From positions 434,001-498,000 of the forward strand of contig NZ_JAMTCH010000005.1 of NCBI RefSeq assembly GCF_024171735.1: a stretch of 64,000 bases of DNA, given 5' to 3'. This stretch comes from Prauserella alba (GTDB lineage: Bacteria; Actinomycetota; Actinomycetes; Mycobacteriales; Pseudonocardiaceae). The notes beneath the pieces were generated by a model, which ran no database searches, was not told the origin of the DNA, and saw only the letters and a program-made list of their open reading frames with translations. The translations under genes were made by a program, and so were the position numbers. Shown one piece after another: positions 1 to 13,146 of this stretch (the stretch's first letter is position 1; every line of letters starts with the position of its first letter).

Positions 1-1874
1 CTGTCTGCCGACAATGCGGTTGCCGTGAGCCCGCTGTCATCGAGCAGGGCGGGAAGGGCGGACAGCCGCAGCTCCAGCAACCCCTGCAGTGTGGTGTCCA
101 GCCTTGTCCGTTTGTTACGCAGCGCCAAGAGATCTTCAGTATGTAGGAAGGTGATTCCGCAGTGGTATCCAAACGACCGAATGGCGCCCACGACATCGTC
201 ACTAGCTCCGGCCAACTGCGCTCCGACACGTGCCGGGAACTCGAACATGGTTCCGAAGAGTGCAGTGCCGCTGGCGACCACCTGACCAGGCTGGCAGGCA
301 CGGGCGCGTAGCGACGTCAGCTCATCCAGCCACTCGGCGAACACCCCGGACAGCGCGGGCCTGTGGTGGGCGATGATCGCCGCAGCCTGCGCGAGGAGGA
401 AGTCACCCGCCATGATGGCTGTCGCTGCGGGCCAGTCGACGCCGCGCTGTTCCGAGCTTTGGGATGCGGGGCCGAGTAGGGCGAGAGCGCCGAGCATGGC
501 CAGCTCGATGGCCGTCGCGACAAGGGCGTGTTCATTGTCCGGTGGTTGCCCGTTGACCATCGTCGCGGCAGCGAAGAGTATTGCTGGCCGGAGGTCGTGG
601 TTGGTCCCGGATTGGCCGGATACGAGCAGAGACGTGATGAACGGCCAGTCGTCGCGCACCGTCCTGACTGCGATCTCGTTGCAAGCGAGAAGGAAAGGGA
701 CGAGAAGTCGGCTCGTGTCATCCTGAAGACCCAGCCGTTGCTGCGGCCCGAGTCCGCCGATCCCCTCCGGCAGCAGGATCGCTCTACGCCCCTTGACAAA
801 GAACGGGTTCTCGCTGCTCGAACTGTCAGCCAGCATGCGCCAGGCAAGGTGATAACGGCGAGCAGCGTGACGTGCTGTACCGAAGTATCCGATGAAGGCG
901 CGGGTGAGCTCACGTGTGTAGGCTCGCTCAGCAGCGTCGTTCTCAGCGAAATGAGCCGCGATTGCACGACCTGCAAGTACTCCGCTCCGGATGGCGTGTC
1001 CGAGACCGTCACCGGTGAACGGGTTCACAAGACCTGCAGCATCCCCGACCAGCAGGATCCCATCTCGCGCGCAGCCCTCGGGCTCGAAGCTGGTGTTGAT
1101 GAGCCCCGAAATGACCGGGGTTATTGGCCGCAATGAGAAGTTGCGCTCTCGGGAACGCAGACTCTCGACAGCAAGGTCAAGCAGTTCGCACGCTGGCGCG
1201 TGCCGGTCCGAGGTGAGCGCAGTCACTGCGACGGTGGCGACGCTCGGAAACACCGGTGAGGGCAGCACCCGGGCCGCGGTGGGGCGAGCTTGAGGATTCG
1301 TCGGCGGTGGAGGTACCAACTCCAGGGACGTTGGCGTGCCTTCGGGAAAGCCCTCATATCGTCGTGCGTAGGTGATACCTGTGGGCTGGCCCGCGTGAGT
1401 GAGGAGACGGCTTGCCTGGTGGCTGCCGGCCGCCAACACTACGTACCGAACGTTGATGGTGTCGTCGGACTCGAGAGTTGCCAACCAGCGATCGCCGACA
1501 CGCTCGAGCTGGCGAACAGGAGAGTCGATGAAACGTACGCTGGCGTCTCGAGCCGATCTGCGCAATTCACCTAATAGCGCATTACGGGTGCACAGAACGA
1601 GGCCGGGTTCGTCGTAAGTGACGTCACGTTGGCCGTCGAACCGTACTGCGAGCCTGTCCACTGGGGCGCTCTTGAGGGTATAACTCGCTCGTGGTGCTGG
1701 AGGGAGCTCGTTGCTGCTGAGGGCTACTTCGTGATCGACCGGCAATCCACGGGGCGGTCGGTCGGCAAGCACAACGTTTATGCCCTGCAGCGCGAGCTCG
1801 CGTGCCGCGGTGGAACCCGCCGGGCCGGCGCCGACGACCAGTACGTCGATTGCCGCTGAGTTGGTCAGGTCCAC
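1..1874 (-). CDS. Geranylgeranyl-reductase-family flavoprotein fused to an inactive polyprenyl-synthase-like domain (3' end beyond window)
   Basis: The reading frame is open from a GTG at 1874 to the left edge, about 624 codons, so the C-terminus is missing. Residues 1-390 look like an FAD-dependent geranylgeranyl reductase: a dinucleotide-binding GAGPAG motif at 15-20 and the second flavin motif, beginning GDAAGLVNPFTGDG, near 276. From about 420 the protein aligns with trans-prenyl synthases (LRPAILFAAA near 426, GDFLLAQAA near 490). The first aspartate-rich motif is absent, and the second is degraded to TEDLL near 580, so prenyl transfer by this domain is unlikely. The GTG overlaps the upstream synthase stop by 10 bp, which suggests translational coupling. 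Inference: the pair forms a hetero-oligomeric synthase whose product the reductase domain hydrogenates. GC is lower than on the right side of the window. Confidence 0.8.
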   Translation of the reverse strand, partial: MDLTNSAAIDVLVVGAGPAGSTAARELALQGINVVLADRPPRGLPVDHEVALSSNELPPAPRASYTLKSAPVDRLAVRFDGQRDVTYDEPGLVLCTRNALLGELRRSARDASVRFIDSPVRQLERVGDRWLATLESDDTINVRYVVLAAGSHQASRLLTHAGQPTGITYARRYEGFPEGTPTSLELVPPPPTNPQARPTAARVLPSPVFPSVATVAVTALTSDRHAPACELLDLAVESLRSRERNFSLRPITPVISGLINTSFEPEGCARDGILLVGDAAGLVNPFTGDGLGHAIRSGVLAGRAIAAHFAENDAAERAYTRELTRAFIGYFGTARHAARRYHLAWRMLADSSSSENPFFVKGRRAILLPEGIGGLGPQQRLGLQDDTSRLLVPFLLACNEIAVRTVRDDWPFITSLLVSGQSGTNHDLRPAILFAAATMVNGQPPDNEHALVATAIELAMLGALALLGPASQSSEQRGVDWPAATAIMAGDFLLAQAAAIIAHHRPALSGVFAEWLDELTSLRARACQPGQVVASGTALFGTMFEFPARVGAQLAGASDDVVGAIRSFGYHCGITFLHTEDLLALRNKRTRLDTTLQGLLELRLSALPALLDDSGLTATALSAD

Positions 1875-2854
1875 TGTCGCCGCCACATGGTCTCTGCCGT
1901 TACCAATAACGCTTCGCCAGCCGGCAATTTTGTGAGCGGTCCCAGCACGGATACAGCGTCGTCGTAGTGTCGCTCTGCGATTGTCATGGCTTGCTCCACA
2001 CCCCCGGTCGCATGCACAAGCTTACGGACGCTCGTTAGAGCAGTGGCGTCGATGGAAGGCGACATCAGCACCTCTGTGAGCTCAGTGGAAGCGGGTCCCG
2101 AAAGGGCGCACAGCGTCGGTAGGCCGAACAGCCCGAGCAGATGATCGGTTCCTACTGGCTTATCGTCGGCGTCGATGCGCAGATCCAGGCAGTCATCCAC
2201 GATCTGGAAGGCGATTCCCATGTTGCTGCCGAACTGGTCGAGGCGCCTAACATCCTGTGTCGCGACCTGTGCCTCCTGTGCGCCGAGTACGCAACACAAT
2301 CGGAACAGCTCTCCGGTTTTACTGCGCGCGAGCTCGACGTAGTCAGCCGTCGTAACCGTGGGGTCAAAAGCTCGCTGCACGTCGAGAAGTTCGCCACGAG
2401 ACAGTTCAGCGACCGCGTCGCTCACTGCGCCACTTACCACGCCTCCCAGATCGGCGGATTCTGCTCCGACCTGGGCGAAACAGGCAGTACCAGTCAGAAC
2501 TGCCAGCTCTGGGCCGGCCACCTTGTGGGCGGTAGGGGCGCCGCGTCGCGTTGCTGCTCTATCTATGACGTCATCATGTAGGAGCGACGCGCAGTGCAGC
2601 AGCTCGACAATGGCTCCCAAACGTACCAACCGTGTGTAGTTCGGGTTTCCGAAACGGGAACACACCTCGAGTAGATGAGATCGAAGGTACTTTCCCGGAC
2701 GCGTGATCAGTGCCTCGAGCAGCGGCCGAAGAGGTTCGCTCAACGTGCCAGCGCACAGATTCATGTGACTGCGTACACCTTGGACGAAATCTTCGTCCCG
2801 AGGTAGCTCACTGATCATGACGGCAAGCCGACCTTGGTGATCACCGGGGGCCAT
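1865..2854 (-). CDS. Trans-polyprenyl diphosphate synthase
   Basis: This 329-residue protein belongs to the isoprenyl diphosphate synthase family, which condenses isopentenyl diphosphate onto allylic diphosphates. Both aspartate-rich Mg-binding motifs are present: HDDVID at about 93-98 and DDCLD at about 220-224. The usual GKRLRP is GKYLRS, and the usual GDYLL segment is replaced by TGTACFA, so it is a divergent member. I chose the ATG at 2854 because GAAGGT precedes it by about 8 bases and it overlaps the protease stop by 14 bp; a start 28 codons upstream would run deep into that gene. The next gene carries a catalytically dead copy of the same fold, so this one probably supplies the active site. 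Chain length cannot be read from the sequence. Confidence 0.88.
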   Translation of the reverse strand: MAPGDHQGRLAVMISELPRDEDFVQGVRSHMNLCAGTLSEPLRPLLEALITRPGKYLRSHLLEVCSRFGNPNYTRLVRLGAIVELLHCASLLHDDVIDRAATRRGAPTAHKVAGPELAVLTGTACFAQVGAESADLGGVVSGAVSDAVAELSRGELLDVQRAFDPTVTTADYVELARSKTGELFRLCCVLGAQEAQVATQDVRRLDQFGSNMGIAFQIVDDCLDLRIDADDKPVGTDHLLGLFGLPTLCALSGPASTELTEVLMSPSIDATALTSVRKLVHATGGVEQAMTIAERHYDDAVSVLGPLTKLPAGEALLVTAETMWRRQWT

Positions 2855-4406
2855 CCGCACCTTCAATGGGGCCAACTGCCTGCAGGGTAGGTACGGCAGC
2901 GACGATGTCCCACAAACGCCGGAATCGGTTTGTGTCATTCATGTACTGGATGATCTGTTGATTGTTCATTCCCAGTGTTGGTTTCAGCATCTCGTTGTAG
3001 AGTGAGTCTCCCGCGTTTGCTTCCTCCGTCGTCATATTGACCTTTAAACCGCTCAGTGCGAAGGCTGCATCGTCGAGGTGCTCTTGAGTGACAACGAGTC
3101 CCGGACGGTCAGGATTGGCGAGTGCGTTGACTAAGAAGTCGTGATACTTGTCGTACAGGCTTGCGGCACCGGCCTTTTCTTCCGGCGTGGCCTCTACGCC
3201 TTCTGTCCGACTGAGGATCACGTCCGAGTTCACGTAGAACATACGGGAAAGGTAGTTTCCGATTTGACTCCGTGCGAAGAACTCGTCGCGCGCGCGATCA
3301 GCGTGCTCGTGGTCGTTCTGTAAGGGTAAATCGTACATGTCGCCAACACTGTCCATGAACGGACACAGGTTCTGCGCAATCTCGATGGGTGTATGTGTCA
3401 TTCCATCCCCGCCCATGCAGACAACCGATCCTGAATCGCCTGGCCAGCCGAACTGGCGGGTCATGATTAAGTCATGGAACCAATACGGTCGCGTGCCACT
3501 GCTGTCATCGATATATACGACCGCTACGAAATTCACTGCATAAATCGTGCTGGAAGTGTATCCAGTGCGGTACCCCACTTTTTCGATAGGCTGATCCAGG
3601 TCTCCCCCTCCTGGGATGTATAGACCGTTTGGTGCGGTCAGTAGGTCGCAGTTGATGCTGGACAACACCGAATCGATCTTCGTGATAAAGCCAAAAAAAT
3701 GCGTCGGGTCCCCGGCGAAGTATAGCCCGATAGCCGGGTGATTGTCAGAAATTTCTGACATGCGGTTTCCCGGAAATTCTGGCGTCAATTCAGTTGCGTC
3801 GTCCGTCAATTGGGCGAGCGCAACATCAACCGTGTTAGAATTATGAACACCGGGCGTCAGGGGAACGAACCGCTTGAGGTGGCCGATGACGTCAGAGCCC
3901 CCGCCGCCCCCAGGTTGAACGATCTCGTCGCCTATTTGACCGGAGTTATCCCGGACCAATACATGATTGTTTGACAAGATACCACTGGAGTCGTCGGTAA
4001 GATCGCGAACGAAGACGCTCAGTGTTCCGACTGGGTTCTTGTTTCGGTTGCCAACGACGGATCCTTGGCGCAGGGGACGAAAACGATCCGGTAGAACCGG
4101 GTCGTTGAGGCCAGGTTGAAACTCGGGATCACCCCTCGTAGAGAATGGGCCGGCCTCGATGACATCAACTCCGTAGTTGCCACCGTCCACCTGCACTGAC
4201 CGGGGCAGCAGCTTCTCGGTGGAGACATAACCGGCTGGGCGCTTCTTCGTCACGGCTGCAACGACGGTCGGCTCACCGGTCTGCGCTCCGTTCTTAACGC
4301 GAAACCCGATGCCAGCACCATGGAAATCTCGTTGGCCCCGATGCTGACGCAGGACCTGGTCTCGAGCCCGGTTGAGTTTCGCTTCCAAGCGTGTGTCAAT
4401 ACGCAT
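2841..4406 (-). CDS. Nal1-like trypsin-fold serine protease with C-terminal extension
   Basis: The predicted product has 521 residues. A trypsin-type catalytic triad is visible: His148 in GILSNNHVLV, Asp194 in NTVDVALAQL and Ser325 in GWPGDSGSVV. The N-terminal 60 residues carry a GAGIGFRVKNG segment like the start of Nal1-type peptidases. About 150 residues after the serine form an extension I do not recognise. No signal peptide is evident, so the protein may be cytoplasmic or associated with the exported product of the gene just upstream. The ATG at 4406 is preferred because TGGAG lies about 8 bases upstream and it falls 15 bp after the preceding stop; a longer start at 4463 would overlap that gene by 43 bp. 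It shares an operon with prenyl synthase genes, an unusual pairing. Confidence 0.82.
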   Translation of the reverse strand: MRIDTRLEAKLNRARDQVLRQHRGQRDFHGAGIGFRVKNGAQTGEPTVVAAVTKKRPAGYVSTEKLLPRSVQVDGGNYGVDVIEAGPFSTRGDPEFQPGLNDPVLPDRFRPLRQGSVVGNRNKNPVGTLSVFVRDLTDDSSGILSNNHVLVRDNSGQIGDEIVQPGGGGGSDVIGHLKRFVPLTPGVHNSNTVDVALAQLTDDATELTPEFPGNRMSEISDNHPAIGLYFAGDPTHFFGFITKIDSVLSSINCDLLTAPNGLYIPGGGDLDQPIEKVGYRTGYTSSTIYAVNFVAVVYIDDSSGTRPYWFHDLIMTRQFGWPGDSGSVVCMGGDGMTHTPIEIAQNLCPFMDSVGDMYDLPLQNDHEHADRARDEFFARSQIGNYLSRMFYVNSDVILSRTEGVEATPEEKAGAASLYDKYHDFLVNALANPDRPGLVVTQEHLDDAAFALSGLKVNMTTEEANAGDSLYNEMLKPTLGMNNQQIIQYMNDTNRFRRLWDIVAAVPTLQAVGPIEGADGPR

Positions 4407-4420
4407 TGCTGCACTCCAGG

Positions 4421-4954
4421 TCAGCTGGTCTTTTCGGAAAGGCGCCGCGACATATCGAGCCATAGATCGGCTGCCGTATTGGAATTTGGGTCGAAATGTG
4501 AAGACACGGCCGCGATTGCAAGTCCGGTTGTTGCCCTCAGCTGCAATAAAGACTGATGGTCGCTCTGCGCGGCCAACTCGCCGACTTTCCTGGCGAGATG
4601 ACTAACGTCCGATTCCAAAAGCTGCGCCGCTACCATTGCCCGCGCGCCGGCTTTGGCGAACGCAAGTCGACCAGTTGTCAACCTGGCTATTGCAGTATCC
4701 AGGCCCTGCGCTGTCACACTTGGTGGTGGGTCGCCATTAGGAGGACCAAATCGGGGAAACGGAACCGGTACATCGGAGACCGTCTCGGCCAGCCGGGTCA
4801 CCATAGCCCTCTGTTGCGGCGGCAGCGTGTGTTGTTGTGCGGCGTTGGCGTAGGAAGAACCGGAAACTCCAATGGCTAGACTAGCTGCGCTAGCCGTTGC
4901 AATGTATAAGACAGTGCGCCGATCAAGTTCACGGCGCTGGTCGCCGATTGACAC
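4421..4954 (-). CDS. Small exported protein with Tat-like signal, unknown function
   Basis: This 177-residue protein starts with arginine pairs (RRELDRRTVLYI) followed by a hydrophobic Ala/Ser-rich stretch that ends near ANAA at about 38, which looks like a twin-arginine or Sec signal peptide. The mature part is helical in character, rich in Ala, Leu and Gln, with a proline-rich segment near 60-78 (VPFPRFGPPNGDPPP). I recognise no domain. It is the first gene of the leftward operon leading into the protease and prenyl synthase genes, 15 bp upstream of the protease start. A role as partner or substrate of that protease is possible but unsupported beyond position. Confidence 0.7.
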   Translation of the reverse strand: MSIGDQRRELDRRTVLYIATASAASLAIGVSGSSYANAAQQHTLPPQQRAMVTRLAETVSDVPVPFPRFGPPNGDPPPSVTAQGLDTAIARLTTGRLAFAKAGARAMVAAQLLESDVSHLARKVGELAAQSDHQSLLQLRATTGLAIAAVSSHFDPNSNTAADLWLDMSRRLSEKTS

Positions 4955-5229: not shown

Positions 5230-6309
5230 ATGTCGGAACGACGGTGGACGCAGAAGAATATTCTCAAACTGGCGAGCTTGGCACTCGTCGTGGGCTTCAT
5301 CGGGTCGAATACTATGGATGAGAACGCAAACGATTATCCGTTAGAATTCTCGGATATTTATCTCGTGGATCAAGAGGAAGAAATCCCCAACGGTCCGGAT
5401 ATCCGTGCCGTGGGACCGTACTGGCAGGGAGAGCGCGAAGCTGCTCCTAAGGCTGTGCCGTTCTCGGCTAGTGGTGGTCGTGCCGGCGACTTCACCGGCG
5501 ATGGCATCGCTGACCTAATGGCGCGAAACGCAGATACAGGTAATCTGCTCATTTATCCCGGTAGTGGTTCTCTGGAGGGCACGGCAACCTATGGCGAAGC
5601 GGTTAAGGTTTTCGGCGACACTAGCGGTTTCGACTGGATGGGCCAAGGAGACTTCAACGGCGATGGCCTTGCCGACTTCATCGGAACTGACCCCTCTGGT
5701 CAGCTCGGCATTGCCTACAATTCCGGAGGGCTCAACGGCGAGAACACGTTCGACACCGTTTTCGTCGTCGGGGGAGGCTGGCAGGATTACGACCTTAGAA
5801 CTACGGGAGACTTCAACGGCGATGGTATTGACGACCTGCTCGTCCGACGTACCGGAACTGGCGATGTCTATGTGGCGACGGCGTCGTCGACCGGAAGCGG
5901 TGACGTAACCCTCGAACCCCCGGTACGGATTGTCACGGGCCTGGATAGTGCGGTCAATATGCAGTACATCGACGTAACCGGTGATGACGCGCCAGACCTG
6001 CTTTTTCAGTGGGAGCCAAACGGATACCTGTACTTGTATGATTTTTATGCCGATCAAGACTCCAGCGGAAACTTCATAGCTAAACTGTATGCGCTGTCTA
6101 GCGGGTGGGAGGAAAGTAACGCGACAATTTTCGCCGATATGAATATGGACCGCAGTCCCGACCTTATTGTTCGTAGCGTAGAGAATGGCAATCTTGTCGG
6201 AATACCGCACAGTGGAAACTGGAACTTCGCTAGACCTCAGGACCTATTTACGCTCGACGGGTCCCAGATAATCGGTGCAGACTGGAATAGAAACGATATA
6301 GTTACGTGA
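5230..6309 (+). CDS. Secreted or membrane-anchored FG-GAP/VCBS-type calcium-binding repeat protein
   Basis: The 359-residue product has an N-terminal hydrophobic segment (about 11-27) behind a basic start, then a repeat region. Calcium-loop sequences recur roughly every 53 residues: DFTGDGIAD at 87-95, DFNGDGLAD at 141-149, DFNGDGIDD at 194-202, DVTGDDAPD near 248-256 and DMNMDRSPD near 303-311. Spacing and motif match FG-GAP/VCBS repeats that build beta-propeller blades. The last two loops have lost the canonical NGDG, so calcium binding there may be weaker. It lacks a catalytic domain, and adhesion or ligand binding outside the cell is the usual role of such repeats. It is transcribed away from the protease/prenyl operon and may be functionally linked to it. 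Confidence 0.78.
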   Translation: MSERRWTQKNILKLASLALVVGFIGSNTMDENANDYPLEFSDIYLVDQEEEIPNGPDIRAVGPYWQGEREAAPKAVPFSASGGRAGDFTGDGIADLMARNADTGNLLIYPGSGSLEGTATYGEAVKVFGDTSGFDWMGQGDFNGDGLADFIGTDPSGQLGIAYNSGGLNGENTFDTVFVVGGGWQDYDLRTTGDFNGDGIDDLLVRRTGTGDVYVATASSTGSGDVTLEPPVRIVTGLDSAVNMQYIDVTGDDAPDLLFQWEPNGYLYLYDFYADQDSSGNFIAKLYALSSGWEESNATIFADMNMDRSPDLIVRSVENGNLVGIPHSGNWNFARPQDLFTLDGSQIIGADWNRNDIVT

Positions 6310-6313
6310 CGGA

Positions 6314-6691
6314 TTAGTCAGCGGAAAATGGGCCGCCTCGGTTGTAACGAACTGGTACATTCTCAAAACAACTGGGTAGGTCTCTTATCGATGCGTTCGT
6401 CAGGGTAATAACCGATAGAATGTATCTGTCTCCCTGTTGGCCGATGCCAACGCCCTGGATTTCGGAGCCCGGGTTGCCGCGCGCTATATACTCTTCCACA
6501 AAATGTATCCGTGCTGTTTCGGCCTGATCGAATTCGACCGGCTCGCAATGGGACTCCTCATGTCGAGGGCCTAGTGCAAGCCAGGCTACAGTGACGGCTG
6601 CGCCTCCTGCAACGAAGACGGCGAGCAAGAAGCCGGTGCGGCGGGTTCCAAGCACAACAGCTATTGTTGAGCAGCGGCGCGCAGTGTGCAA
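6314..6691 (-). CDS. Small single-pass membrane protein, unknown function
   Basis: The 125-residue reading frame has one hydrophobic helix at about 20-40 (FLLAVFVAGGAAVTVAWLAL) after an arginine-rich start, followed by an acidic extracytoplasmic part with two cysteines (SHCEPVEF, SCFENVPVRY). The segment IQGVGIGQQGDRYILSV resembles the N-terminal GVGIG segment of Nal1-type peptidases such as the one encoded at 2841-4406; the resemblance is short. It converges on the FG-GAP gene with only 4 bp between stops. It could be a regulator or inhibitor of the neighbouring protease, but that is speculation. Confidence 0.5.
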   Translation of the reverse strand: MHTARRCSTIAVVLGTRRTGFLLAVFVAGGAAVTVAWLALGPRHEESHCEPVEFDQAETARIHFVEEYIARGNPGSEIQGVGIGQQGDRYILSVITLTNASIRDLPSCFENVPVRYNRGGPFSAD

Positions 6692-7231: not shown

Positions 7232-8350
7232 ATGGAGGCGGGGCACAGCGTGACAGCAAGGGAGCCGCAGGTTGACAGGCGTGTGACGGTCAGCGAAGTA
7301 CCCCTACCTGCTGACCCGACGTCGTCGGTGACCTTGGACGGACCACCTGTCCCGCCGGCTGCGCGTATACGCTTGTACACGCCGGATGAGTGGGAAGATT
7401 TCATTCGCGAGTGGGTTACCGCGTTGAAGGAGTCCTACGTCCAGATCAAGCGTCTCGGTGGGGCCGGTGACAAGGGTGCGGACATCGCCGCATTCAAGAC
7501 GGACCGGCAGTTCGAGGGGGCGTGGGACTGTTTTCAGGCAAAGCATTATAGCGAGCCGCTCGGTTTCGCTGCTGCCGCCTCCGAGATCCTCAAGGTTTTC
7601 GTATCTGTGCTCGAAGGGGCGTACACGCTGCCCGACAGCTACCAGTTCCTGGCCCCCAGAGGGTTGTCGACCCAGTTCAATATGCTGGTAAGCAAGCCGA
7701 CTGCCCTGCGCGAAAGATTCTTGGTGCGGTTGGTTGAAGGCGACACGTTGGTGAAGGGGCTGGATGCAGGCACGACCGATGCGGTGCGGTCGGCGGCAGA
7801 GAGAACCGACTTCGCTATGTTCAGGTCGGTGGAGGTGCTCGACGCATTAACCACACACAGCCACACGAGGTGGCATGCGGCCCGGTTCGCCACCTCGCTT
7901 CCCGCTCGCGGCGACAGCGAGATCCCGCCGGGGGAGTACACGCCGGATGAGGCGCGCTATCTGCAGCAGCTCCTGGCTGTGTATGCGGAGCGCCGCCCGG
8001 ACAAGATCACCACTCTCGACTCCGTGGCCAACGTCCCGAAGTTGAGTAGTCACTTGCAGCAGCAGCGGGTGAGGTTCTTTCGAGCGGAGTCGCTCAAGGC
8101 CTACTCAGCCGCCGCGGTACCCCCAGGCACCTTCGAGGAGCTTCAGGAAGACATCCACGCCGGGGTGATCGATGTCGCTGAGGGCGACCACGCGGACGGA
8201 TACGCGAGGTTGGGCCAGGTGCTGACGCAGGTGGGCAGCCTTGACCTCAACCGGCACAAGCTCATCGGCGTGACCGACATCGACGACCGCAAGGGTGTCT
8301 GCCACCAGCTGGCGAATGAGGACCGCCTGATCTGGGTGGAGGAGGCGTGA
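7232..8350 (+). CDS. ABC-3C system effector: Mrr-like nuclease domain plus ABC-3C C-terminal domain
   Basis: The 372-residue protein has two recognisable parts. Residues about 45-115 resemble Mrr-type PD-(D/E)xK nucleases, with GAGDKGADIAAF and, after a short loop, FQAKHY supplying the Asp and Q-x-K residues. Residues from about 235 to the end match the C-terminal domain that defines ABC three-component systems, including PPGTFEELQEDIHAGVIDV and the distinctive GVCHQLANEDRLIWV. In this family that domain links a variable effector to the ATPase machinery. It is the first gene of a tightly overlapped trio. The start is uncertain: the ATG at 7232 has no good ribosome site, whereas GTG at 7250 follows GGAGGCGGGG. 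Expected role: nucleic-acid cleavage on sensing invasion. Confidence 0.85.
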   Translation: MEAGHSVTAREPQVDRRVTVSEVPLPADPTSSVTLDGPPVPPAARIRLYTPDEWEDFIREWVTALKESYVQIKRLGGAGDKGADIAAFKTDRQFEGAWDCFQAKHYSEPLGFAAAASEILKVFVSVLEGAYTLPDSYQFLAPRGLSTQFNMLVSKPTALRERFLVRLVEGDTLVKGLDAGTTDAVRSAAERTDFAMFRSVEVLDALTTHSHTRWHAARFATSLPARGDSEIPPGEYTPDEARYLQQLLAVYAERRPDKITTLDSVANVPKLSSHLQQQRVRFFRAESLKAYSAAAVPPGTFEELQEDIHAGVIDVAEGDHADGYARLGQVLTQVGSLDLNRHKLIGVTDIDDRKGVCHQLANEDRLIWVEEA

Positions 8351-8835
8351 GAAGTCCTCTCAACGGCCCACTGGAGTACGGGATCCGCGTGTTGGTGTTG
8401 CTGACCGAAGCCTATCCGGACCAGTTGGACATCAATCATCTGGTCTTGCTCGACCACAGCGTGCTGCACACCGCGGACCTCGGAGGGCCGCCCAACATCC
8501 ACCCCTTCCACTCCCTGCACGCCGGCGAGCTGGGGGTGCGGCGCGTGAACGTGGAAGAAGGGCTACGGGTGATGCTGCGCGCCGGGTTGGTCGACATGCG
8601 TGCGCTGAACGTCGGCATCCGCTACCAGGCCGGGAATGAGGCGTACAGCTTTGTCAGCGGGCTCGCGACGCGGTATATCGCCGCGCTGCGTGACCGCAGC
8701 CAGTGGGTGGTCACGCAGCTCGGGACGTTGTCCGAGGAGGAGATCAGGCAACAGACCGTGGCGATCTTCGGTAACCGTACGAGCGAAGGCCACAACAGGC
8801 ACCGAGTGAGGGAGTCAGGAACGTGGAACGGCTAA
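8347..8835 (+). CDS. ABC-3C system middle component
   Basis: The 162-residue protein matches the small middle component of ABC three-component systems: a conserved YPDQLDINHLVLLDHS segment near 20-35 followed by a glycine-proline turn, GGPPNIHPFHSLH. The later part looks like a winged-helix fold. It starts with GTG at 8347, overlaps the effector stop by 4 bp (GTGA), and has an excellent site, GGAGGAGG, immediately upstream. Its stop overlaps the ATPase start by 13 bp. In this family it is thought to bridge effector and ATPase. Confidence 0.85.
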   Translation: MRSPLNGPLEYGIRVLVLLTEAYPDQLDINHLVLLDHSVLHTADLGGPPNIHPFHSLHAGELGVRRVNVEEGLRVMLRAGLVDMRALNVGIRYQAGNEAYSFVSGLATRYIAALRDRSQWVVTQLGTLSEEEIRQQTVAIFGNRTSEGHNRHRVRESGTWNG

Positions 8836-10718
8836 CCCTGCTGCACCTGACCTTCATCGGCCCGACGGTCAGCCCCGCCACCGTCGAGTTCGGGCCCAAA
8901 CTCACCTTGGTCCGCGGGCCGTCGGACACGGGGAAGTCCTACATCGCCGACACCATCGACTTCATGCTGGGCAGCAAGACGCTGGAGGATATTCCGGAGC
9001 GGGACGGTTACGACACCGTGCTGCTCGGCCTCCGTCTGCCCGACGGGGAGCCCGTTACGTTGGCCCGGAGTACGCAAGGCGGTGGCTTCCGCCTCTTCCG
9101 TGGTGACCACCGCGCCTACCCTCTGCCTGTCGACAGCACCTCCAAGTCGGCGAAGCACAGTCCCAAGAACACCACGAACCTCTCGCACTACCTTCTGGAC
9201 AAGATCGGCCTCGGACGGAAGGTTATCCGCAAGAACGGACGTGGGCAGACGATTTCGTTGAGCCTGCGCGCGCTAGCCCCCTTGTTCCTGGTGGGCGAAA
9301 CCAAGATCCAAGCGAAGACCCCACCGGCCGTGACGGGGCAGCACACTCAGCGGACCGGGGAGATCTCCACGTTTCGCCTGCTTCTGCAGGGCGAGGATGA
9401 CTCCGCGGTCGAACCGGGTGAATCGGAGACCGAGCGGCACACGTCCGAGGCAGCCAAGAACGACGTCATCGACACGCTGCTGACCGAACTTTACGAGCAG
9501 CTCCAAACTGACGAGACGCTCCAGCAGGTCAACGAACGTCTCCAGCGCTTGCAGGCGACGATCACCGAGTCGACAGGGGGCATCGAGGAGACTGCGGCAG
9601 CGAGGCAGCAGTGGGGGAAGGCCCTGTCCAACAGTGAGCGGCTTGCCGCCGCCGCGCGGCGCAGCCTGACCGAGCTGGACACGCTCGACGCGCGCTTCAA
9701 GCTGCTCCACGAGCAGTACACCTCCGATCTGGACCGGCTGGAAGCTGTGGCCGAGGCTGGGACGCTGCTGGGCTACTTCACCCCGGGACGCTGCGTGTTC
9801 TGCGGCGCCGAACCCGAGCACCAGCACCTCAACGAGGATTGCGCCGACGACACGACCGCCCTCGGCGAGTCCGTACGCGAGGAACAGCGCAAAACGACCG
9901 CGCTCCGCGACGACCTGCTTCAGGCCATCGCCGGGCTGCGCGCCGAACGTGACGAGAAGGCTCAGCGACTCCAGGGTTACACCGACGACGCGGCACAAGC
10001 GCGAACGACGATCGCACGGCTGGACGATATCCTCAACCCCCAGGAACGCGAGCTGAACGACCTGCTCACCTTGTCCTCCCAGCTTGAACGAGACGCCGAG
10101 AGCATCCGCCATATTCAGCGGCTCGAAGCCCTCCGCCCCGACATCGAGGCCGGGCCGAAGCCAGAGGTGATGGCCCCTACGGCAGGCCTGCAGCGCAGCG
10201 CTGTCGACGACCTGTCCCGCATGATCGCGGTCCGATTGCGGGCCTGGGGCTTCCACGACGGCGACAGCACCAGCTACAGCTTCGACGATCAAGACCTCGT
10301 TTCCGGAAACCAACCGCGCTCGGCCCACGGTAAAGGTGTCCGCGCCATCCTGCACGCCGCGTTCACCATCTCGCTCGCCCAGTACTGCTTCGACCGCGAT
10401 CTTCCCCACCCTGGCTTCGTCGTGCTCGACTCACCCCTGGTCGTCTACCGCCCCCCGGACCCCAACGACGAACCCGACAATAGCGACGACGTCCTCGACA
10501 CTGCCAACCTCGCCGACCGGTTCTTCGCCGATGTCCAAACAAATTTCTCCGGCCAAATCATCATCTTGGAAAACGAAGACCCGCCGAACGCCCTGGAGCC
10601 CGAGACGCGCGACATCTCGTTCACCAAGAACGCAGACCATGGCCGGTACGGCTTGTTCCCCCACAACCAAGCCAACGACACGGGGGGAGGAAATACGACC
10701 GGCGGCGATGGGCGGTAG
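8823..10718 (+). CDS. ABC-3C system SMC/Rad50-like ATPase
   Basis: The 631-residue protein is an ABC ATPase of the SMC/Rad50 type. The Walker A loop is GPSDTGKS at 32-39. A long charged, Gln/Glu-rich coiled coil fills about 200-310 and 345-460, broken by a cysteine hairpin with CVFC near 323 and a third cysteine near 339, which resembles a zinc hook. Walker B is FVVLDSPLVVY near 530. It starts with GTG at 8823 after AGGA and is translationally coupled to the middle component. It should sense or clamp nucleic acid and drive the effector encoded at 7232-8350. GC is higher than in the genes to its left, so the three-gene cassette may have a separate origin from the 1-6.7 kb block. Confidence 0.88.
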   Translation: MERLTLLHLTFIGPTVSPATVEFGPKLTLVRGPSDTGKSYIADTIDFMLGSKTLEDIPERDGYDTVLLGLRLPDGEPVTLARSTQGGGFRLFRGDHRAYPLPVDSTSKSAKHSPKNTTNLSHYLLDKIGLGRKVIRKNGRGQTISLSLRALAPLFLVGETKIQAKTPPAVTGQHTQRTGEISTFRLLLQGEDDSAVEPGESETERHTSEAAKNDVIDTLLTELYEQLQTDETLQQVNERLQRLQATITESTGGIEETAAARQQWGKALSNSERLAAAARRSLTELDTLDARFKLLHEQYTSDLDRLEAVAEAGTLLGYFTPGRCVFCGAEPEHQHLNEDCADDTTALGESVREEQRKTTALRDDLLQAIAGLRAERDEKAQRLQGYTDDAAQARTTIARLDDILNPQERELNDLLTLSSQLERDAESIRHIQRLEALRPDIEAGPKPEVMAPTAGLQRSAVDDLSRMIAVRLRAWGFHDGDSTSYSFDDQDLVSGNQPRSAHGKGVRAILHAAFTISLAQYCFDRDLPHPGFVVLDSPLVVYRPPDPNDEPDNSDDVLDTANLADRFFADVQTNFSGQIIILENEDPPNALEPETRDISFTKNADHGRYGLFPHNQANDTGGGNTTGGDGR

Positions 10719-11187
10719 GGCGAGCTTGGGCAGTGTCGGCGCCCGCCACGATGCTAATGACGCCGCCGGGCCCGTGGTGAAGCCACTGCAAGCCATGCTG
10801 CGTGCGGGAGTGACGCAGGAGGGGACGGTGCGCCATGCGGTGTCCGGCCCCACAGGCTGCCCCGGCATTCGTCGCTGCTTTGCAACGTGTACCTGCACCG
10901 GCTGGACTGGGAGTGCACGGCTCGTGGCGACATGTGTTCTGTCCCGTGGGTGAGAACGTGGTCTGAACATCAGTGCGTTTGCGTGCATGGGTGGAACGCT
11001 TATGGCCTGGTGGCTCATCAAGAGGAATGCACATGCTGTGGTCTCCGATTGGGCTCCGTTGCCGACGTAGAGCCCGACACAGGACGGCACTCGCAGGCAT
11101 CGAAGTCCGGCGGAGGTGCTTTATGATCTGCACTTTCCGACCCGTTTAGGCAGTCGGCGTCACTTGGCGGTAGAGGTCCCACCCGGT
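10719..11187. other. Non-coding stretch between the defence cassette and the tRNA fragment
   Basis: No credible gene is visible in these 469 bp. The last bases, 11165-11187, belong to a direct repeat shared with 13084-13104 and may be the island-side arm of an attachment site. Confidence 0.4.
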
Positions 11188-11232
11188 CTACGGATCAGAA
11201 GGTTTGGGGTTCGAATCCCTACAGGCGCGCCA
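11165..11232 (+). repeat. tRNA-Arg(ACG) 3' fragment within direct repeat copy 1 (probable att site)
   Basis: Bases 11188-11232 reproduce the 3' part of a tRNA-Arg gene from the anticodon loop onward: CTACGGA, half of the anticodon stem, a T arm with TTCGAAT loop and TGGGG/CCCTA stem, acceptor strand CAGGCGC, discriminator G and encoded CCA. The matching 5' half (acceptor GCGCCTG and D arm) is absent; the preceding bases, GGCGGTAGAGGTCCC, do not fold as a tRNA. Those upstream bases recur before the second copy at 13084-13146. A tRNA 3' end without its 5' half is the classic product of site-specific integration into a tRNA gene. Confidence 0.75.
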
Positions 11233-11237
11233 CCAAG

Positions 11238-12723: not shown

Positions 12724-13083
12724 CGTTGGCCGGTGCCAGCTGCGCGAAACCGTTGAAGGTCAGCAGTAGTGCGGCCAGTAGGTCCGAGCTGCGCAGGGCC
12801 GAGGAGGCCAGCATGAGCAGACCGATCAGGACGACAGCGCACGGCCGGACCCGGACCATGCCGCGGTCGGCTGCGTGGGTACGAGTGTGCTGGCGACCAT
12901 CGTCGATATGCCGACGAGCATGCCCGCCGCGGGCACCATCGCGGTGGCGGCGCCCGCGACGATCACGAGTCCGAGCGCCCAGTCCGGCAGGGCGTCGCGC
13001 GCCATCGTGAGTAGCGCTGCGCGGGGGCCGCCGGACTGTTCGATCGCCAGGGCGGTGAAGCCCAGGATGTAGTCGGCGCCACC
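12724..13083 (-). pseudogene. Frameshifted internal remnant of a sodium:solute symporter (SSS family)
   Basis: Read leftward from 13083, one frame gives LPDWALGLVIVAGAATAMVPAAGM and a threonine/serine membrane stretch, then continues in another frame (around 12850-12870) as VVLIGLLMLASSALRSSDLL and TFNGFAQLAPANA. These are consecutive transmembrane segments typical of SSS monocarboxylate-type permeases. The normal gene exceeds 500 codons; only about 120 remain, bounded on both sides by tRNA-Arg fragments. It is a dead fragment left by rearrangement at the integration site. Confidence 0.65.
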
Positions 13084-13146
13084 CGGCGGTAGAGGTCCCC
13101 CGGTCTAGGAATCAGAAGGCTCGGGGTTCGAATCCCTACAGGCGCG
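13084..13146 (+). repeat. tRNA-Arg 3' fragment within direct repeat copy 2
   Basis: This copy parallels 11165-11229 over about 63 bp, including the non-tRNA lead GGCGGTAGAGGTCCC, with one deletion and a handful of substitutions (CTAGGAATCAG for CTACGGATCAG). It keeps the T arm and CAGGCGC but loses the CCA (GCGGAG follows). The chromosome to its right has uniformly high GC, so it may mark an older integration boundary. Confidence 0.7.

Follow-up and report, generated by a model that had tools for sequence, protein, structure and literature searches.

The stretch analysed here (the window) comprises 64,000 nucleotides of the Prauserella alba genome (G000), namely C3:434001-498000; L-numbers denote the loci of this analysis, L003 being the locus that contains the window. 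At its left edge lie four leftward genes encoding a protein with a twin-arginine translocation (Tat)-type signal, a Nal1-like protease, a prenyl synthase and a fusion of a geranylgeranyl reductase (GGR)-type protein with a synthase-like domain, just as an earlier reading of the letters alone (the original prediction) had described. Together with a divergent neighbour they are arranged as follows:

1..1886, minus strand: GGR-type flavin adenine dinucleotide (FAD) reductase fused to a prenyl-synthase-like domain, 684 amino acids (aa)
Left part of the fusion, minus strand: ends 169 bp beyond the window's left edge, at L003:14832, as read in the extended genome sequence
1865..2938, minus strand: separate trans-polyprenyl diphosphate synthase with both DDxxD motifs; likely start 2854 or 2818
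2841..4463, minus strand: Nal1-like trypsin-fold protease with intact His/Asp/Ser and an extra C-terminal region
4421..4954, minus strand: small all-helical protein with a twin-arginine signal motif; RR invariant in 19/19 aligned homologues
5230..6309, plus strand: FG-GAP repeat protein, divergent to the module, with homologues adjoining the module in three Amycolatopsis loci

The overlaps of 14 and 10 bp given by the original prediction hold with plausible internal starts (Met at 2854 for the synthase, 1874 for the fusion) and fail with the first start codons, which yield overlaps of 98 bp (Nal1/synthase) and 22 bp (synthase/fusion). A scripted start choice placed the synthase start at 2818, leaving a 22-bp gap to Nal1. 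The overlap size differs because it depends on which start codon is chosen.

A profile built from an alignment of five fusions was searched against a collection of 84,980 genomes, one per species, and returned 65 loci, from which 28 GGR-like loci without the fused domain, three duplicates (L027, L028, L041) and two fragments (L040, L049) were dropped. The 32 loci kept, together with L003, L009-L012 and L084, constituted the final set of 38; L083, L085 and L086 were left out, being the same as or very near L026, L043 and L065. A separate synthase gene was found in 36 of the 38 fusion loci, and the remaining two begin at a contig edge. The synthase was located immediately upstream of the fusion and codirectional with it in 32 loci, the two genes being separated by -49 to +31 bp. 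The four other synthase genes, all from Actinomadura, lay nearby on the opposite strand, together with Nal1. Nal1 itself was present in 29/38 loci (its presence in L035 and L045 cannot be judged), ran in the same direction as the synthase in 28 and, in 24 of the 29, headed a same-strand series Nal1-synthase-fusion. The homologous fusions are about 28-48% identical to that of the window, and the synthase-fusion pair occurs also in Myxococcota and Pseudomonadota. The three core proteins had strongly correlated identity matrices (Mantel r 0.81-0.94, 27 loci, 0/2000 permutations). The genes had been supposed to work together, and the check put forward for this, co-occurrence in other genomes, gave a positive answer. 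This demonstrated that protease, synthase and fusion are a unit kept together across lineages, and that the module is real and conserved.

The module is rare and patchy, since the fusion was found in 4 of 150 sampled genomes of the same family and, at E 1e-50, in 1 of 396 genomes of the phylum sample, the own genome only. It was absent from the six other same-genus genomes listed in the family sample. In the order sample the profile matched 272/298 genomes, nearly all through ordinary GGRs, and seven genomes exceeded 410 bits. The plasmid scan gave one fusion match.

The separate synthase of the window matched polyprenyl_synt (E 2.4e-50) and resembles long-chain and geranylgeranyl diphosphate (GGPP) synthases. 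Its motifs read HDDVID and VDDCLDL; with both DDxxD motifs kept, the label of an active prenyl synthase that it had been given appears to fit. The first DDxxD motif was found in 35 of the 36 separate synthases and the second (DDxx[DE]) likewise in 35, the exception being L033, whose synthase is short and incomplete. The residues at -5/-4 before the first motif were AS in 34 and AT in one of 35 loci. Such small residues fit medium or long prenyl products. The fusion of the window matched FAD/GGR-type families and, weakly, polyprenyl_synt. Its synthase-like domain is C-terminal and lacked DDxx[DE] at both motif positions in 37/37 readable rows of the 38 (the sequence of L047 is cut). The 38-row alignment of the fusion contained an FAD-binding GxGxxG and a G-AGL-PFTG-type motif, both of which are motifs of the GGR superfamily.

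The protease of the window matched NAL1 structures in the PDB (E 3.7e-6), with the N-terminal domain and the start of the protease domain aligning; its NAL1_N (Pfam) match reached 23.0 bits, slightly under the 27-bit cut-off. No signal peptide was seen in it by eye. The His-Asp-Ser triad of NAL1 was intact in the window protease and in 24 of the 28 Nal1 rows where the region is present. In four loci (a Rhodococcus plasmid, a Myxococcota metagenome-assembled genome, Bradyrhizobium and Massilia) an S8 (subtilisin) protease occupied the Nal1 position. Two Micromonospora Nal1 loci and the Bradyrhizobium and Massilia S8 loci have two protein families in common, c6 with proteins of about 200 aa and c11 with proteins of about 1250 aa. 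As c6 and c11 flank both types of protease, the Nal1 and S8 folds appear to fill one role, and this is the best evidence for the swap. The c11 proteins carry PKD domains and an N-terminal half assigned to no family (L043:3064-6825, L046:2041-5799) and, judged by eye, may possibly bind lipid; the predicted structure of c11 was poor (pLDDT, predicted local distance difference test, 39) and unusable. A stand-alone relative of the S8 pro-region may be encoded upstream of S8, for which the indication is weak (hhalign probability 89).

A gene with a twin-arginine signal was located upstream of Nal1 in 26 of 28 assessable Nal1 loci, and directly before it in 25; L031 was excluded since its sequence stops short of the gene preceding Nal1. 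Among the 26 loci the partner belonged to the helical family of the window in 21 and to a second family in five (L010, L017, L026, L032 and L036, from Amycolatopsis and Kibdelosporangium). The helical family, of which L024 and L121 have members besides those in the partner alignment (A2), likewise with RR, is predicted to be a Tat substrate. Its structure was predicted confidently (pLDDT 83), and the model matched no known fold (best Foldseek E 0.56; best Z 3.8). The second family looks beta-rich by eye, and the single member scanned matched nothing in Pfam; an identity with DUF6801 was dropped for that reason, the proteins matching DUF6801 being its neighbours. In the two Micromonospora loci the same core was found, no Tat partner was detected and other genes stood in its place.

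Each part of the module belongs to a known family. Literature searches for the combination, and for bacterial NAL1, heteromeric synthases and saturated polyprenols, with most subscription papers outside their reach, found no description; the original prediction had likewise known of no system with this content, and the module looks undescribed as far as literature searches tell. The nearest relatives of the synthase pair are HexA/HexB and HepS/HepT. HexB is the active subunit with two Asp-rich motifs and its partner HexA may set chain length, according to PMC7839719. Here, too, one copy carries the motifs and the other does not; however, the motif-less copy shares a polypeptide with an FAD reductase and is linked to a protease. 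In rice, a heterodimer of GGPP synthase and a recruiting protein is held with GGR, as cited in PMC12187845, and a comparable synthase/reductase assembly is proposed here. In contrast, the plant proteins are separate and act in chlorophyll synthesis, and the passage on them mentions no protease. The module protease shares with plant NARROW LEAF 1 the N-terminal domain, the start of the protease domain and the triad residues, but it is bacterial, has a further C-terminal region and lies beside lipid genes. NucA-trypsin conflict systems are a type in which both trypsin-like and S8 proteases occur, together with a NucA-type nuclease (PMC7159879), and both protease types occur in module loci as well. 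The passages on them in PMC7159879 mention, however, no isoprenoid genes, and the weak nuclease matches of two module loci are to another family, NucA/NucB; the window has no such match. Finally, the best NCBIfam match of the module synthase was the polyprenyl transferase cargo of family 2 encapsulins, but its 154 bits are far under the cut-off of 450.

These observations are compatible with a three-gene core that takes up accessory genes, mostly the twin-arginine partner. As a full explanation this is our leading proposal, which we put at somewhat short of an even chance; its parts differ in strength. The separate synthase would team up with the fused domain that lacks DDxxD, in the manner of HexB and HexA, and the pair would make a trans-prenyl diphosphate whose length is fixed and probably medium or long; we consider this step probable. 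The attached FAD reductase, to which the chain is handed over, would then saturate some of the double bonds before chain release, which is likely, if less firmly so. The protease would act on the Tat-type partner or accompany it, and the isoprenoid, once reduced, would serve the same cell-envelope task as a membrane lipid, carrier or anchor; this last part is possible and rather doubtful. A still more specific picture, in which the protease trims or escorts the Tat-exported partner and a polyprenyl saturated on site holds that partner at the envelope, the partner and even the protease fold being exchangeable and the lipid factory constant, is speculative and we regard it as unlikely. Moreover, the Micromonospora cores in which no Tat partner was detected imply that anchoring this partner cannot fully account for the module. 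The original prediction, a mobile module making a reduced isoprenoid, thus stands as regards the conserved unit, the FG-GAP link, the left side and the mobile setting, and the reduced product remains what the enzyme families lead one to expect. If correct, the module would be a compact case where proteolysis and isoprenoid saturation appear tied together; it would also place relatives of plant NAL1 in a bacterial context, and its natural synthase-reductase fusion might be of use for making saturated isoprenoids.

Several observations weigh against this proposal. The reductase domain scored under the curated cut-off of every GGR model listed, TIGR02032 (GG-red-SF) giving 85.3 bits vs a cut-off of 158.8. 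Degenerate Nal1 triads are present in L029, L037 and both copies of L019, and the fusion occurs without Nal1 in L033 and L034 (by tblastn) and in L047, for which only about 2 kb of upstream sequence was available. The partner of L019 sits two open reading frames (ORFs) from Nal1, and export of the partners is predicted from the twin-arginine motifs in their sequences. Nor are the partner families cleanly distinct, as L017, a member of the second, has a match to the first (E 0.0014), which may be due to the signal only. Near neighbours showed no significant excess of exported proteins by a crude signal test (49/109 vs 58/148, p 0.21). No prenyl acceptor was identified. The family-scan matches listed for the window's module genes include no prenyl- or lipid-transferase family. 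The Mantel correlation, too, is partly due to host relatedness.

The genomic setting of the module in P. alba is that of mobile DNA. The GC content was 54-61% over window 2-8 kb vs about 69% beyond 13 kb, and the lower-GC DNA was claimed to end at a tRNA fragment, which proved to be a 3' remnant of tRNA-Arg(ACG). The features outside the conserved module are:

11038..11233, plus strand: repeat with the tRNA-Arg(ACG) 3' remnant, 196 bp, 86% identity; right end of a 15-kb stretch
-4090 to -3903 (C3:429910-430097): partner repeat copy; left end of the 15-kb stretch
11152-11229, 13071-13146 and -3974 to -3907: tRNA-Arg(ACG) 3' remnants
7232-8350 (LmuA), 8347-8835 (LmuC) and 8823-10718 (LmuB), plus strand: Lamassu, a co-carried neighbour
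L003:1479-9374 (window about -13521 to -5626) and L004:6804-14125, to the left: Wadjet III genes and type I-E cas operon

Between the repeats lie two tyrosine recombinases, the module and the Lamassu system, in agreement with the mobile setting supposed before. An intact tRNA-Arg gene is located about 127 kb away (C3:318270-318343), and the remnants suggest successive integrations over this distance; in its own genome the module probably arrived on an integrative element at tRNA-Arg. The Wadjet III genes identified by PADLOC were JetA, JetC and JetD, the place of JetB giving no match, and the cas operon comprised Cas6e, 5e, 7e, 11e, 8e and 3.

The ordinary carotenoid or menaquinone locus that had been considered does not lie to the left of the fusion; a GH6-like lipoprotein gene starts 12 bp past the fusion and is followed by the recombinases. 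Besides the window, three Amycolatopsis loci have both an FG-GAP and a GH6-like gene along with the core; the association of FG-GAP homologues with the core, which had been raised earlier, is thus found in four loci, the window counted. In the alignment the GH6-like protein has LSC and EPR where PDB GH6 chains have RDC and EPD. The Asp residues of the latter are the two GH6 catalytic acids, and the protein lacks these acids usual for an active GH6 glycosidase. Neighbour scans of the loci covered 126 of 137 listed proteins (six were dropped for size and five as module proteins). Secreted hydrolases are encoded near the core in several loci; a secreted M4 protease gene lies near the degenerate-triad Nal1 in L019 and L037 and also beside the intact Nal1 of L009. 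NucA/NucB-like nucleases, apparently secreted, are encoded upstream of the Tat-type partner at L011:14583-16052 and L024:2505-3974 (Pfam below cut-off).

Other explanations were weighed against the same data. That the genes are chance neighbours on a mobile element would suit the mobile stretch and the six listed same-genus genomes without the fusion. It is rejected because gene order is conserved: the synthase directly precedes the fusion in 32/36 loci and the Nal1-synthase-fusion order recurs in 24/29, at fusion identities of about 28-48%, and the synthase-fusion pair reappears in Myxococcota and Pseudomonadota; we consider it extremely improbable. That the genes form a biosynthetic cluster whose product is a secreted terpenoid or lipid metabolite, with the protease maturing or protecting a protein of the pathway, is less far-fetched, although on balance still unlikely. 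AMP-binding ligases made up five of the 126 neighbours, one of them directly downstream of the fusion in L044 and followed by an acyl carrier protein-like ORF (by eye), a regulator with BTAD and NB-ARC domains adjoins L037, and a dead polyprenyl synthase subunit is normal in terpenoid pathways. However, no terpene cyclase or P450 was among the 25 listed of 106 Pfam families in these neighbours, and such a cluster leaves the Tat-type partner in 26/28 loci unexplained.

Membership of the GGR superfamily and the long-chain-type synthase would also agree with a tailoring locus for modified quinones or polyprenyl phosphates, in which lipids of the host itself undergo an additional, MenJ-like reduction. 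Yet the MenJ model gave the fusion 39.6 bits vs a cut-off of 700, and no menaquinone gene was recognised beside the window's core, the other loci not having been searched specifically; this explanation seems improbable. The same holds, somewhat more strongly, for a defence or conflict module in which an intracellular serine protease is the effector and a membrane lipid switches it or acts alongside it. The module adjoins Lamassu, with the Wadjet III genes (JetA, JetC, JetD) and the type I-E cas operon further left, Nal1 matches a PHROG annotated as protease, and trypsin-like peptidases belong to conflict systems described in PMC7159879 and PMC8195603. But PADLOC matched none of the four leftward proteins, the only module proteins scanned, and among the 126 flanking proteins, from 30 of the 38 loci, it gave only four rows at E 1e-8, each with a single member. 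Neither paper uses 'prenyl' or 'isoprenoid' in its main text. The defence genes are read as co-carried, and not as the function of the module, because they are rare around the other loci scanned.

Some candidates and homologues fell outside the module. A stand-alone NAL1_N-like domain upstream (a 95-aa ORF in Micromonospora; the ORF at 6314-6691 in the window) was alike by eye only, and HMM (hidden Markov model) and profile tests of these ORFs gave nothing above 60 control ORFs. An SCP2 identity for family c14 was a guess, as neither Pfam nor the PDB gave a match. Of the 150 same-family genomes, 14 had Nal1-like matches at E 1e-6, full-length only in the four that bear the fusion. Two same-genus genomes contain an intact, shorter Nal1 homologue of 339 aa in an ordinary-looking setting, and the P. 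alba genome itself holds a broken copy of a short Nal1-like gene (L111, G000:C1:1351903-1352897). The plasmid scan gave three weak Nal1 matches, and the two inspected were both in other gene settings. On a Rhizobium plasmid (L013:5312-8861) a Nal1 homologue lies beside a radical SAM protein and a HEXXH putative peptide-modification protein, perhaps another use of Nal1-like proteases.

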